Assembly: GCF_027594865.1 (NCBI RefSeq)
Contig: NZ_CP089391.1
Location: forward strand, 4,618,501 to 4,682,500
From: Bradyrhizobium xenonodulans
GTDB taxonomy: Bacteria > Pseudomonadota > Alphaproteobacteria > Rhizobiales > Xanthobacteraceae
Direction of reading: 5' to 3'
DNA: 64,000 nt
Shown here in pieces: positions 15,773-62,926 of the stretch (the first letter of the stretch is position 1; each line of letters starts with the position of its first letter). Under the pieces are notes generated by a model, which made no database searches, was not told the origin of the DNA, and saw nothing but the letters and a program-made list of their open reading frames with translations. Both the position numbers and the translations under genes were made by a program.

Positions 15773-18244
15773 GTGACCTCCTTTCCGCGCGCCGCATGGC
15801 GATCCCTTGGTCTGGTCGTGTGCCTGACGGCAGGGCTGTCGGTGGGCTGCGCCGCCCTCGCCAAGTCCAATGAGACGGCTGCGGACCCCGCCAAAGACGC
15901 TGCGAAGAACACGGCGAAGCCAGCCGCCAAGGATGCGGCCAAGGGGCCAGCCAAAGGGTCGGCCAAGGAAACAGCCAAGGATACAGTCAAGGGAACCGGC
16001 AAGGACGCAGCGAAGGGCGCGAGCAAGGGTGCGACGAGTGCCCCGGCCAAGGATGCAGCGAAGAAGCCTGGCAAAGATGCCGGTAAGGATGCTGGCAAGA
16101 ACGCCGGCAAGGATCCCACTAAGGACAAGCCAGCGGCGGCAGCGCCGGCGCCGAAATCGCATCCAGCCGCCAGCGGTTCGTCTCCGAAAACCGCACCTGC
16201 GCCGGCCGCGACGGCCACCATCAAACCAGCGGCCCCGGCCGCCGCCAAGCCGGTCGCAGCCCCCGTGCTGGCGCCTGCGACCCGCCAGCATGCGACGCCG
16301 CGCAAGCCGGTCACGCCGGCCGCGGTCGCTGCGACCTCCTCGACGCCGCAAGCCGACAAGGACACGCTGGAGACCGTCATCGAGCTCGTGCGCAAGCGCA
16401 AATCGGGCGATGCCAGCAACTACGCCGCCTCCATCTCCGACCCCGTCGCGCGAAAGCTCGCCGAATGGATCATCCTGCGCAGCGAAGACAATGGCGCCAC
16501 CGTCGAGCGCTACCGCGCCTTCCTGTCCGCCAATCCGAGCTGGCCGTCGCAAACCTTCCTGCGCCGGCGCCTCGAGGCCGCGATGTGGGACGACAGGCGC
16601 GACGATTCCGTCGCGTGGTCGTGGTTCGAGAATGAATCCCCCGTGTCCGCCAAGGGCCGCTTCACGCTCGCCAAGGCGATGCTGGCGCGCGGCGACCGCG
16701 CCAATGCAGAACGCCTGGTGCGCGAGGCCTGGCGCAGCGATCCGATGTCGGAGGACACCGAGAACAACGCGCTCGACCAGTTCGGCGCCCTGCTGACGCC
16801 GGGCGACCAGAAGGCGCGGATGGACACGCTGCTCTACGGCAGCGAGAACGAAGCGGCGCTACGCGCTGCAAAGCGCCTCGGCGCCGGCTATGTCGCGCTC
16901 GCCAAGGCCCGCATCGCCGCCGTCAAGAAAGCGCCGAACGCGCATGCGCTGCTCGACGCCGTGCCGCGCGAGCTGCACAACGATCCCGGCTTCATCTTCA
17001 GCAAGATCCAGCTGCTGCGCCGCGAGGAGAAGTTCACTGAGGCCGCCCAGCTCATGCTGTCGGCGCCGAAGGATCCGGGCCGGCTCTACAATCTCGACGA
17101 ATGGTGGATCGAGCGGCGTCTCCTGGCGCGCAAGATGATCGACACCGAGGAATTCCGCAGCGCCTATCTGATCGCGCGCGATGCGGCCCTGCCCTCGCGC
17201 GACATCTACAAGACCGAGCAGGAATTCACCGCCGGCTGGATCGCGCTGCGCTTCCTCAACGATCCGGCAGCGGCCACCCAGCATTTTGCCCGCATCGGCG
17301 TCGGCAGCGTCAATCCGACCACGCTGGCGCGCGCCGGCTATTGGCAAGGCCGTGCCGCGGAAGCCGCCGGCCGCCAGCAGGAGGCGCGCAACGCCTATGC
17401 CCGCGCAGCCGAACAATCCACGAGCTATTACGGCCAGCTCGCACGCGCGAAGCTCGGCCTGCCGCAGATCGAGCTCAACAGCCAGCCGCGCGGCCGCGGC
17501 GCCGAGCGGCTGGAGATCGTGCGCGCCGCGCACCTGCTCTACGAGCTCGACGAGCGCGAGATGGCCGTGCCCATGCTCGCCGACATGGGCGAGAACGGCG
17601 ATCCCGAGGCGCTTGCCGGCCTCGGCGAACTCAGCCAGCGTTACAGCGACGCGCGCGGCATGCTGCTGCTCGGCAAGGCCGCGCTCAACCGCGGCCTGCC
17701 GTTCGACTACTACGCCTACCCCGTCAACGGCATACCACAGTTCACGCCGATCGGCCCCGAGGTCGAGCGCAGCATCGTCTATGCGATCGCGCGGCAGGAG
17801 AGCGCGTTCAATCCCTCCGTGGTCTCGCCGGCGCAGGCCTACGGGCTGATGCAGGTGACGCCGGACGCCGCACGCTATGTCTGCAAGCGGCACGGCGCGA
17901 CTTACGATCTGGGGCGGCTGAAGAACGATTCGGTCTACAACGCCACGCTCGGCTCAGCCGAGCTCGGCGGACTGCTGGAGGATTATCGCGGCTCCTACAT
18001 CATGACGTTTGCCGCCTACAATGCCGGCCGCGGCAGCGTGAAGAAGTGGGTCGACCGCTACGGCGACCCGCGCGACCCCAAGGTCGACGCGGTCGACTGG
18101 GTCGAGCTGATTCCGTTCTCCGAGACGCGCAACTACGTGCAGCGGATCATGGAAAACCTTCAGGTCTATCGCGCCCGCTTCGGCGGCGGCTCGCGGTTGC
18201 AGATCGAGGCCGATTTGCGCCGCGGCGCCGGCAGCGTGGAATAG
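15773..18244 (+). CDS. slt: Soluble lytic murein transglycosylase with Lys/Ala-rich linker
   Basis: Slt cleaves the MurNAc-GlcNAc bond of peptidoglycan to form 1,6-anhydro ends. From the GTG at 15773 the product is 823 residues: a signal peptide ending near GCAALA, then about 170 residues of Lys/Ala/Pro-rich low complexity with AAKG/AKDA-type repeats. An alpha-superhelical U-domain follows. A C-terminal SLT domain has the catalytic Glu in [29 protein letters not shown] at 15737 would add 12 residues before the signal peptide and is less likely. The polycationic linker is far longer than in E. coli Slt70 and resembles histone H1 tails in composition. Confidence 0.9.
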
Positions 18245-21261: not shown

Positions 21262-23874
21262 TCAGACGGATCGTACCGAGGACATCTCGATGTGGTCGGG
21301 CGGCAGTCCGGCACGATACCGCCGAACCATGGCCTCAAACGCTTGTTCCAGGTTTCGGGCAAGCAGAGGCGTATCGAAGAGCGGCATCGTATGACGACGC
21401 TTTTCCAGAGTTTCCCTGATGCCGTGGAGCTTCTCACGATTGAGAGCCAGTTCAATCGCGCGTTCTTCATATTCATCGCGAGAATGCGTGATGAGTTCGG
21501 CCAATCCGAGAGCATGCAGCAGGCTGGCTGCGACCCGGCCCGCATAGGCTTCTCCTGTCAGCGTCAGCACGGGCAGGCCAGCCCAGAGAGAGTCGCCTGC
21601 GGTGGTGTGAGCATTGTACGGCAGAGCGTCCAGGAACAGGTCTGCCAGGCCGTGACGCGCCAGGTGATCCGCCGTCGAGGCAATGCGCGCCGCAAAGACC
21701 AGGCGCTGCGGATCGATGCCGCTCGCCTCGGCCGCTCTCCGCAAATTGGATTTTGCGACATCCGGGAGATCGGAAAGCCAGACGACAGAGCCGTCGACAT
21801 CCCTCAGGATGCGCATCCAGCTCCCAAACGTCGCAGGATTGAGTTTGTAGGCGTTGTTGAAGCCGCAGAAGACGACGCCGTCGGCGGGCAATCCCTGCGC
21901 CCGCCTGTCGAGCCCGGCATGCGAGATCGCGCGTCCCTCGGCATCGTGAGGCATGAAGCAATGCGGCAGCCAGACGACCTTCTCCGAAAAGTGCTTGCGG
22001 TCCTCGGCAGGAATGACCCGCTCATCGGCGATCACATAATCCAGCAATCCTCCGCCGACGGTGCCGGCAAAGCCGAGATAACCTGCGAGAACTGGAGCCG
22101 GCCGCCGCGCGAGAAGAGCGAGCCGTGCTCCGAGCGTATGCCCCATCAGGTCCACGAGGATGTCGATCTTGGCCGCCTCGATGCAGCCCATGATTTCATC
22201 ATCGCTCCGCCCGAAGAGATCGGTAAAATGGTCGAAGCTCCTCTCCAATCGGGCGCGCAGATCGCTGTGGTCGGTCGGGCCGATCGAGAAACCATGCGTT
22301 TCAAATCGGGTGCGATCGTGGGCCTCGAAAAGCCCTGCGGCCAGATAGCTGACTGGATGAGTGCGAAAATCCCCCGACAAGTAGCCGATGCGGATCTTGT
22401 CGGCCTGAACGGGGGCAGCCTCGACGGTCTTGCGCGCGGCAAGACCAAGCATCCTTTCGATCCAGAAATCGGCGCTTCGTCGCTGGTCCTCGGCCGAGGC
22501 CGCAATCGAGAGCAGCGCAAACGGCTGACAGCCCCCCTCGCCCGCACGAATGGATGCGATCAAGCGCGTTCTTTCAGCCTCTATCTCCGTCCAGTCGCAG
22601 CAATTCAGCTTCGAATAGAGCCTTGCGCCTTCCACCCCGGGCAGGCCGCGATTGAGCGAGAACGCCCTGTCGAAGGCCGCGAACGCGTCGTCGTGGCGAC
22701 GAAGGTCGGCGAAGATGTTCCCTCGCCCGAACCAGGCCTCCGCCAGGTCGGACCTGATGGACAGCGCCTTGTCGTAGCCGTCGAGCGCCTCCCCGTAGTT
22801 CTTAACGTCGGCGAAAACGTTGCCGCGGCCCAGCCAGGCTTCCGCCAGGTCCGGCGCGATGGAGACCGCCTTGTCGTAGGCGGCGAGTGCATCGTCGTGA
22901 CGCCGCAAATCCAGAAGGACATTGCCGCGGCCGAGCCAGGCCTCGGCCGAATTCGCTTTGCCCGAGAGCACCACGTCGTAGAGCGCGAGGGCATCGTCGT
23001 GAAGCTTGAGGGCCGTGAAGACGTTGCCGCGGCCAATCAGGGCCTGGGTCGAATCCGGCTTGATCGAGAGTGCTTTTCCGTAGGCCGTGAGCGCTTCGTC
23101 ATAGCGCTTGATATCCGCGTTGACGTTGCCCCGGCCAAGCCAGGCGGCCGCCGATTCAGGGGCGATGCCGAGTGCGCGGTCGTAGGACGCGGCGGCATCC
23201 GCGTAGCGCCTGAGCTCGTACAGGACATTGCCCCTGCCGATCCAGCCCTCCGCCAGATCGCCCCTGATGGAAAGTGCCCTGTCAAAGGCGGCAAGAGCCT
23301 CGTCGCGGTGCCCGCGCCGAGCCAGCGCCGTGCCGCGGCCGAGCCAGGCTTCCGCCAGTTCGGGCCTGACGGAGAGCGCCCGGTCATAGGCGGCCAACGC
23401 CTCGGCATGGCGCCCGAGTTCGAGCAGCGACTTGCCCTTGTTCGCATGAGCGTCGGCGTAGTTCGGATCGAGAGCAATCGATCTGTCGAAGTCGGATATA
23501 GCCGCTTCGTATTGACCGAGATCGTTACAGGCCGCGCCGCGGTTGTTCCAGCTCTCGCGCACATTTGGATTGAGCCGCAAGGCCGAGGTGAATTGCTCGT
23601 GCGCGAGTGCGGGCTTGCCAAGCTGCTTGGCGATCAGCCCGTAATTGTAGAAGGAAACATCCGATCCTTGATTGAGCTTGACCGCGCGCGCGATGAATGG
23701 CTCGGCCTCGGCGAACCGGTTCGTGTTCATGAGAACGATTGTCAGCAGGTTGAGCGCAGGCACATGCGACGGCTCGGACTTGATGACCCGCCTGAAGCCC
23801 TCCTCGGCCTTCTTGAGATCGCGCGCATTGAGGGCCGAGAGCGCCTCATTGAAGATCGCTGCAATGTTCTTCAT
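21262..23874 (-). CDS. TPR protein with O-GlcNAc transferase-like (GT41) domain, first copy
   Basis: The 870-residue product starts with about twelve tandem 34-residue TPR units (residues 1 to about 410). Several are near-identical, of the type AEAWLGRGNV..D...Y.EAL.AYDKALSI.PD. A SPINDLY/OGT-type glycosyltransferase domain follows: IRIGYLSGDFRTHPVSYL, VDLMGHTLGAR, RPAPVLAGYLGFAGTVGGGLLDYVIAD, PYNAHTTAGDSLWAGLPVLT and FAGRVAASLL-like GRVAASLLHA. It probably transfers a sugar from a nucleotide sugar to Ser/Thr of proteins bound by the TPRs. The ATG at 23874 is preferred to a GTG at 23916. It lies upstream of the porin on the same strand. Targets are unknown. Confidence 0.88.
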   Translation of the reverse strand: MKNIAAIFNEALSALNARDLKKAEEGFRRVIKSEPSHVPALNLLTIVLMNTNRFAEAEPFIARAVKLNQGSDVSFYNYGLIAKQLGKPALAHEQFTSALRLNPNVRESWNNRGAACNDLGQYEAAISDFDRSIALDPNYADAHANKGKSLLELGRHAEALAAYDRALSVRPELAEAWLGRGTALARRGHRDEALAAFDRALSIRGDLAEGWIGRGNVLYELRRYADAAASYDRALGIAPESAAAWLGRGNVNADIKRYDEALTAYGKALSIKPDSTQALIGRGNVFTALKLHDDALALYDVVLSGKANSAEAWLGRGNVLLDLRRHDDALAAYDKAVSIAPDLAEAWLGRGNVFADVKNYGEALDGYDKALSIRSDLAEAWFGRGNIFADLRRHDDAFAAFDRAFSLNRGLPGVEGARLYSKLNCCDWTEIEAERTRLIASIRAGEGGCQPFALLSIAASAEDQRRSADFWIERMLGLAARKTVEAAPVQADKIRIGYLSGDFRTHPVSYLAAGLFEAHDRTRFETHGFSIGPTDHSDLRARLERSFDHFTDLFGRSDDEIMGCIEAAKIDILVDLMGHTLGARLALLARRPAPVLAGYLGFAGTVGGGLLDYVIADERVIPAEDRKHFSEKVVWLPHCFMPHDAEGRAISHAGLDRRAQGLPADGVVFCGFNNAYKLNPATFGSWMRILRDVDGSVVWLSDLPDVAKSNLRRAAEASGIDPQRLVFAARIASTADHLARHGLADLFLDALPYNAHTTAGDSLWAGLPVLTLTGEAYAGRVAASLLHALGLAELITHSRDEYEERAIELALNREKLHGIRETLEKRRHTMPLFDTPLLARNLEQAFEAMVRRYRAGLPPDHIEMSSVRSV

Positions 23875-61350: not shown

Positions 61351-61501
61351 TAAAAGTCTCCTTACGAGGTCATGGCTTGGTCGGGGCGAGGGGTAGATAG
61401 GTTCGAAGAGACGCCCCGGCGCCGTTCGCCCATTTTTACGGCGGAAGGTGCGACCAGATGTGCTAGGTGAAGGAAAGGGCGCTGAAGGATTGGAGGATCG
61501 G

Positions 61502-62926
61502 ATGACGCGGTTTGTAAGGCCTCTGCTCGCTTCCGTGGCGTTGTGCGGCCTGCTCTCGCCGACTGCTCATGCGGAGCTCGACGTCGCCAGACTGAAGCAA
61601 ACGATCGAGACCTCCTTCGAGAGCGAATATCCGAAGCTCGACGCGCTCTACAAGGACATCCACGCCCATCCCGAGATTGCCTTCCAGGAAGAGAAGACCG
61701 CGGCGAAACTCGCCGCCGAGATGCGTGCGATTGGCTTTGAGGTCACCGAGCACGTCGGCAAGACCGGCCTTGTTGCCATCTACAGGAACGGCGACGGTCC
61801 CACCATCATGGTTCGCACCGAGCTCGATGCGCTGCCGATGGAGGAGAAGACCGGCCTTGTTGCCATCTACAGGAACGGCGACGGTCCCACCATCATGGTT
61901 CGCACCGAGCTCGATGCGCTGCCGATGGAGGAGAAGACCGGCCTGCCCTATGCCAGCCGCGACAAGCAGATCTGGCAGGGCCGCGAAACGTTCGTTGCTC
62001 ATAGCTGCGGCCATGACATCCACATGGCGAGCTGGGTCGGCACGGCGAAGGCCCTGGTCGGCATCAAGGACCAGTGGCACGGGACGTTGATGTTCATCGC
62101 GCAGCCCGCCGAGGAAGAGGTCGCGGGCGCAAGGGCGATGATCAACGATGGCCTGTTCACCCGCTTTCCCAAGCCCGATGCGGGATTTGCCCTGCACGAC
62201 AGCAGTGGGGCCTACGGCTCCGTGACCTATCGGGTCGGGGTCGGATCGTCGAATGTCGACGGTCTCTTCATCAGATTTGTTGGCCGCGGCGGCCATGGCG
62301 CGATACCGCAGGCGACCATCGATCCCGTGATGATGGCATCCCGCTTCGTCGTCGACGTGCAGAGCGTGATCAGCCGCGAGAAGGACCCGACCGAATTCGG
62401 CCTTGTCACCATCGGCGCGATCCACGCCGGCACCGCCGGCAACATCATTCCCGACGAGGCCAGGGTGATCGGCACGATCCGCAGCTTCAAGCCGCAGGTG
62501 CGCGCCAGGATGCTGGCCGGGATCGAGCGGACGGCGAAGGCGGTGGCAGCGATGGCGGATGCGCCGGCGCCCGAAATCCATCTCGACGAGGGGACCAAGG
62601 CGGTGGTGAACGATGCCGCTGTCGTCGGCCAGGCCGAGCGGGTGCTGAAAGCGGCCTTCGGCGACAAGTTCAACGTCAGCCCCGCAAACACGACCAGCGA
62701 GGACTATTCGGAATATGTCAACGCCGGCGTGCCTTCGATGTTCTTCAACATCGGCGTCTATGAGCCCGACCGCGTCGCCGCCGCACGTAACGGCAGCGGC
62801 CCGCCGCTTCCCGGCAACCACTCGCCGCAATTCGCCCCGGTGCCGAAACCGACCATCCAGACCGGTGTCACCGCGATGACGCTCGCCGTGCTGAGCGCCT
62901 TCGATCAGAGGGCGCGGGGACAGTAG
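61502..62926 (+). CDS. Exported M20 family amidohydrolase with internal tandem duplication
   Basis: The 474-residue product has a signal peptide (LLASVALCGLLSPTAHA), then IHAHPEIAFQEEKTAAKL and the metal site SCGHDIHMASWVG, QPAEEEVAGARAMI and GRGGHGAIP, which place it among M20D amidohydrolases (hippurate or N-acyl-amino acid hydrolase types). Residues encoded by 61760-61846 (KTGLVAIYRNGDG ... DALPMEE) are repeated exactly by 61847-61933, adding 29 residues. The duplicated segment is near the metal site, so activity may be altered. GGAGG lies about 6 bp before the ATG. Confidence 0.85.
   Translation: MTRFVRPLLASVALCGLLSPTAHAELDVARLKQTIETSFESEYPKLDALYKDIHAHPEIAFQEEKTAAKLAAEMRAIGFEVTEHVGKTGLVAIYRNGDGPTIMVRTELDALPMEEKTGLVAIYRNGDGPTIMVRTELDALPMEEKTGLPYASRDKQIWQGRETFVAHSCGHDIHMASWVGTAKALVGIKDQWHGTLMFIAQPAEEEVAGARAMINDGLFTRFPKPDAGFALHDSSGAYGSVTYRVGVGSSNVDGLFIRFVGRGGHGAIPQATIDPVMMASRFVVDVQSVISREKDPTEFGLVTIGAIHAGTAGNIIPDEARVIGTIRSFKPQVRARMLAGIERTAKAVAAMADAPAPEIHLDEGTKAVVNDAAVVGQAERVLKAAFGDKFNVSPANTTSEDYSEYVNAGVPSMFFNIGVYEPDRVAAARNGSGPPLPGNHSPQFAPVPKPTIQTGVTAMTLAVLSAFDQRARGQ
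61760..61933 (+). repeat. Exact 87-bp tandem duplication inside the M20 gene
   Basis: 61760-61846 and 61847-61933 are identical at all 87 positions. The first 11 bases (AAGACCGGCCT) occur a third time at 61934-61944, which marks the pre-existing short repeat used to make the duplication. The length is a multiple of three, so the frame is kept. Confidence 0.97.

Follow-up and report, generated by a model that had tools for sequence, protein, structure and literature searches.

Lineage-specific, in-frame 87-bp tandem duplication in an M20-family amidohydrolase gene of Bradyrhizobium xenonodulans, likely formed between 11-bp direct repeats

The closest described counterpart of the locus examined here is the penA beta-lactamase gene of Burkholderia thailandensis, in which de novo tandem repeats have been reported (PMC4169377). 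The two cases are alike in being in-frame duplications within an enzyme gene, and penA repeats 1-3 have the same geometry as the duplication described below, which the authors attribute to replication slippage. The bordering repeats of penA are 3-8 bases long, whereas that of the amidohydrolase gene has 11 bases. In addition, the penA duplications were drug-selected, change the omega loop and are reversible (PMC4169377), whereas the 87-bp unit reported here lies in a conserved part of its protein and is not known to have been selected, to bring a gain of function or to revert.

Short, head-to-tail, exact duplications in a bacterial genome are also found in topA mutants of Escherichia coli, where they are reported to arise at a high rate and independently of existing sequence repeats (PMC6954433). 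The duplication studied here differs in that it ends on a repeat pair, and 1.62 Mb of the genome yielded no second exact tandem duplication whose unit exceeds 15 bp. Spontaneous duplications in Salmonella share with it the presence of short direct repeats at their endpoints, but that study is a population survey of spontaneous rearrangements rather than a case of an in-frame duplication found within a gene of an assembled genome (PMC3411829). Among the titles and opening lines of abstracts in the open-licence literature, we found no report of an in-frame tandem duplication in an amidohydrolase, and likewise none of such a duplication in Bradyrhizobium.

The gene that carries the duplication is located on the forward strand at positions 61502-62926 of the window, by which we mean the whole 64,000-nucleotide stretch of DNA that was analysed. 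The open reading frame extends from either a GTG at 61448 or an ATG at 61502, the latter being the start adopted here, and remains open through 62926. It encodes 474 amino acids including the extra unit, versus about 445 for its homologues. The protein scores 255.4 bits against the TIGR01891 profile, above the curated cut-off of 153.75, which places it in this amidohydrolase family. It also matches the M20 peptidase family profile PF01546 (90 against a cut-off of 24.6) and PF07687 (36.4 against 21). The top sequence match among solved structures is 6slf, an N-alpha-acyl-glutamine aminoacylase. Among named loci, those carrying the closest orthologues belong to Bradyrhizobium. A probable signal peptide (MTRFVRPLLASVALCGLLSPTAHA), judged by eye from the translation, is encoded at 61502-61573 on the same strand. 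The neighbours of the gene are an opposite-strand ORF of 180 amino acids, for which a Pfam search returned no match, and a gene for a luciferase-like monooxygenase (PF00296). A scan for promoters and terminators around the amidohydrolase gene gave nothing beyond chance.

The duplication consists of two adjacent 87-bp copies on the forward strand that are identical base for base, located at 61760-61846 (copy 1, residues 87-115) and 61847-61933 (copy 2, residues 116-144). These are followed at 61934-61944 by a third stretch comprising only the first 11 bases of the unit, which specify KTG and two bases of a leucine codon. Sequence compared with itself at an offset of 87 bp agrees over exactly 98 bases, with no extension to the left, and chance is far too small to explain such a match. 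Tandem Repeats Finder reports 2.1 copies of the 87-bp unit with 100% matches, and a separate repeat search agrees. Thus, the two exact copies and the partial third that a preliminary description had noted are confirmed, as are its preserved frame and 29 added residues. Exact head-to-tail copies with a repeat remnant reaching 11 bases beyond them are a feature of slippage-type events.

Comparison with relatives reveals the ancestral arrangement. We parsed 120 of 141 amidohydrolase loci at the duplication site, two of the 120 being the window itself. All 118 others are single-copy with their KTG sites exactly 87 bp apart, although some genomes are represented in both collections (L038 and L120, for instance, look alike), so that not all of these loci are independent. 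The sequence AAGACCGGCCT, which forms the 11-bp remnant, occurs twice, 87 bp apart, in single-copy relatives, which identifies the remnant as the ancestral gene's downstream direct repeat. Relatives including L036, L038, L039, L113, L119 and L120 carry AAGACCGGCCTT at the upstream site and AAGACCGGCCTG at the downstream site, and they thus represent the exact single-copy precursor that had been postulated from the sequence of the window, its template flanked by identical repeats, as in a slippage-type event. At least 11 identical bases are present at both KTG sites in 20 of the 118 single-copy loci; L007 and L116 are among the relatives that lack the full set of 11 repeat bases. An old and fixed duplication is rejected on the single-copy state of all 118 loci.

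We also scanned the B. xenonodulans genome for exact tandem units of 12-2000 bp, covering the window and 78 stretches of 20 kb. Within this 1.62 Mb of the 8.28-Mb genome, the next-longest units after the 87-bp duplication measure only 15, 15, 14, 13, 12, 12 and 12 bp. The duplication is therefore a real and locally unusual event, and the idea of a mutator genome is unsupported by the scan. We considered that nature might hold one copy, with the extra unit introduced during assembly or present only in the sequenced clone. This explanation would fit the confinement of the two-copy form to one genome, but it is improbable given that the genome was assembled as one contig, that both ends of the duplication coincide exactly with the ancestral direct repeat, as expected of a biological event, and that, apart from this one, the scan uncovered no exact tandem duplications with units of more than 15 bp.

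We consider it likely that the locus records a single tandem duplication, specific to this lineage, for which slippage between the 11-bp repeats (or unequal sister exchange) was responsible, and, with less certainty, that the extra unit impairs the enzyme and the gene is dispensable. The ancestral gene carried an 87-bp stretch bordered by two copies of the 11-bp direct repeat. Slippage between these repeats during replication, which we infer as the mechanism, could then have produced the second unit; an unequal sister-strand exchange involving these repeats would give an identical product. Because KTGL is encoded by both bordering repeats in one reading frame, the added length is divisible by three and the ORF stays open. 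The 29 extra residues, drawn from a highly conserved part of the protein, would impair the enzyme, and the two-copy allele might persist as the gene is probably dispensable in the genus.

Two other sources for the event were rejected. A DNA hairpin is not indicated as a trigger, since the strand around the unit folds with a z score of -0.38 and 68 of 200 shuffled sequences fold at least as well. A paralogue is likewise not indicated as a donor, as the four other DNA matches in the same genome are short (37 to 88 bases, 74-86% identity). The 87-bp unit does contain a 13-nt near-palindrome, and the near-palindrome CGCACCGAGCTCGATGCG is found in each copy, at 61814-61831 and 61901-61918.

The duplication postdates the split from the nearest species compared, because it is absent elsewhere. 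The preliminary description had taken the perfect identity of the copies to mean that the event is recent (or the identity maintained), and recency is upheld by this absence from relatives rather than by the identity itself. We reject the latter argument given how little the unit has diverged from the nearest species: it differs by 1 base from L037, L038 and L039, and by 5 from L007. The unit has 21 synonymous sites, so that at the dS of 0.096 to the nearest relative (L038/L120) 2.0 synonymous differences are expected and the probability of observing none is 0.13. For L007, 4.3 differences are expected and this probability is 0.013.

Another reading that had been proposed is a polymorphic on/off or tuning switch, wherein a toggle between one and two copies would reversibly switch or retune the probably exported amidohydrolase in Bradyrhizobium populations. 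Long exact tandem copies can revert, and one penA duplication did so at 3.6x10^-5 (PMC4169377). Moreover, the bordering repeat reaches at least 11 bases in the 20 single-copy loci mentioned above, and the KTGL repeat is conserved at both sites in many species. However, the repeat follows from the conserved KTG at both sites, and selection for slippage need not be invoked. Copy-number variation did not recur among the 118 other parsed loci, and a second two-copy case is also absent from the best 120 of 8000 matching homologous proteins, each of which stands for a 90%-identity cluster wherein a two-copy member would go unseen.

A degenerate junction pattern, which detects only junctions reading EEKTG-x-VA, matched one of 265 genus genomes, one of 397 order genomes and one of 289 class genomes in overlapping sets, and in every case the match was the window's own genome (G000). 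A control with the pattern reversed matched G121 in the genus set and G791 in the class set, indicating that chance matches are rare but not nil. An amidohydrolase match at E <= 1e-100 is present in only 92 of the 265 genus genomes, including the window's own, and thus many genus genomes are uninformative on this patchily distributed gene. In these collections, which hold one genome per species, the switch proposal finds no support, and we regard it as highly improbable.

The location of the unit bears on what the extra residues might do. The motif RTELDALP, whose Asp is presumably the catalytic Asp of M20 enzymes, falls inside it. Further downstream on the forward strand, at 62000-62023, is the motif HSCGHDIH, which we take to be the metal-site region of the M20/TIGR01891 family. 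Its residues H167, S168, C169, D172 and H174 are invariant in 67 aligned sequences, and G170, H171 and I173 are nearly so. The added residues had been described as lying next to the metal-binding region, which is approximate, as copy 2 ends 24 codons upstream of C169 in the CGHD motif (62006).

Within the unit, 22 of 29 positions are invariant in 66 homologues, compared with 191 of 445 across the whole protein, and only 7 of 416 windows of 29 residues have more invariant positions. Positions 87-115 are gapped in more than 90% of the 66 aligned homologues, and it is here that the N-terminal catalytic part is interrupted. HPE and CGHD are separated by 84 or 90 residues in 90 of 92 aligned rows, against 119 in the two that derive from the window. 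Since the unit is strongly conserved and no other parsed relative retains an insertion at this place, impaired function seems, with lesser certainty, the likelier outcome of the 29 extra residues. A damaged allele, which had been listed among the options, appears favoured by this conservation.

The opposite outcome is that the duplication is real and tolerated, with one copy occupying the native place, the other looped out and the enzyme active or only mildly changed. The intact ORF and the presence of the downstream motifs are consistent with such tolerance, and the identity of the copies suggests that either could fill the native place. The HPE-CGHD spacing of the other sequences, with no insertion kept, argues against it, and we judge a tolerated insertion somewhat unlikely. 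By descent, the two-copy protein is a member of the M20/TIGR01891 family, of uncertain activity.

Two observations weigh against impairment in a dispensable gene, the reading that we prefer. The dN/dS values to relatives are 0.06-0.19 (16 loci of the 36 tested) and the rest of the frame is intact. These low values reflect past constraint and give no sign of decay, although a recent event would not yet be visible in them. Two genus genomes may have disrupted versions of the gene. In G069, the orthologue match (C1:4578410-4579482) consists of two pieces that overlap (residues 117-295 and 293-474) and lie in different open frames, resembling a frameshift. In G231, the match (C1:6680324-6681388) contains one internal TGA. 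Both the split and the TGA may be sequencing errors. Because the gene is patchy in the genus, split in G069 and interrupted by a TGA in G231, its loss seems to be tolerable there.

The mutation is of a known kind, and it is confirmed here as a lineage-specific, slippage-type, in-frame duplication. In this natural example, sequence alone reveals the precursor, its pair of bordering repeats and the product of duplication, and it illustrates how a protein motif that occurs twice, such as KTGL, can render its gene prone to in-frame duplication. Otherwise, the duplication is an ordinary mutation, probably harmful or neutral, in an accessory gene.

Two further repeat regions are present in the window. 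At 23229-23437 there is an imperfect tandem repeat with a 102-bp unit, about 1.8-2.0 copies and 75-76% matches, which is older than the 87-bp duplication. Short overlapping arrays with units of 24 and 36 bp and 74-82% matches occupy 15926-16125.
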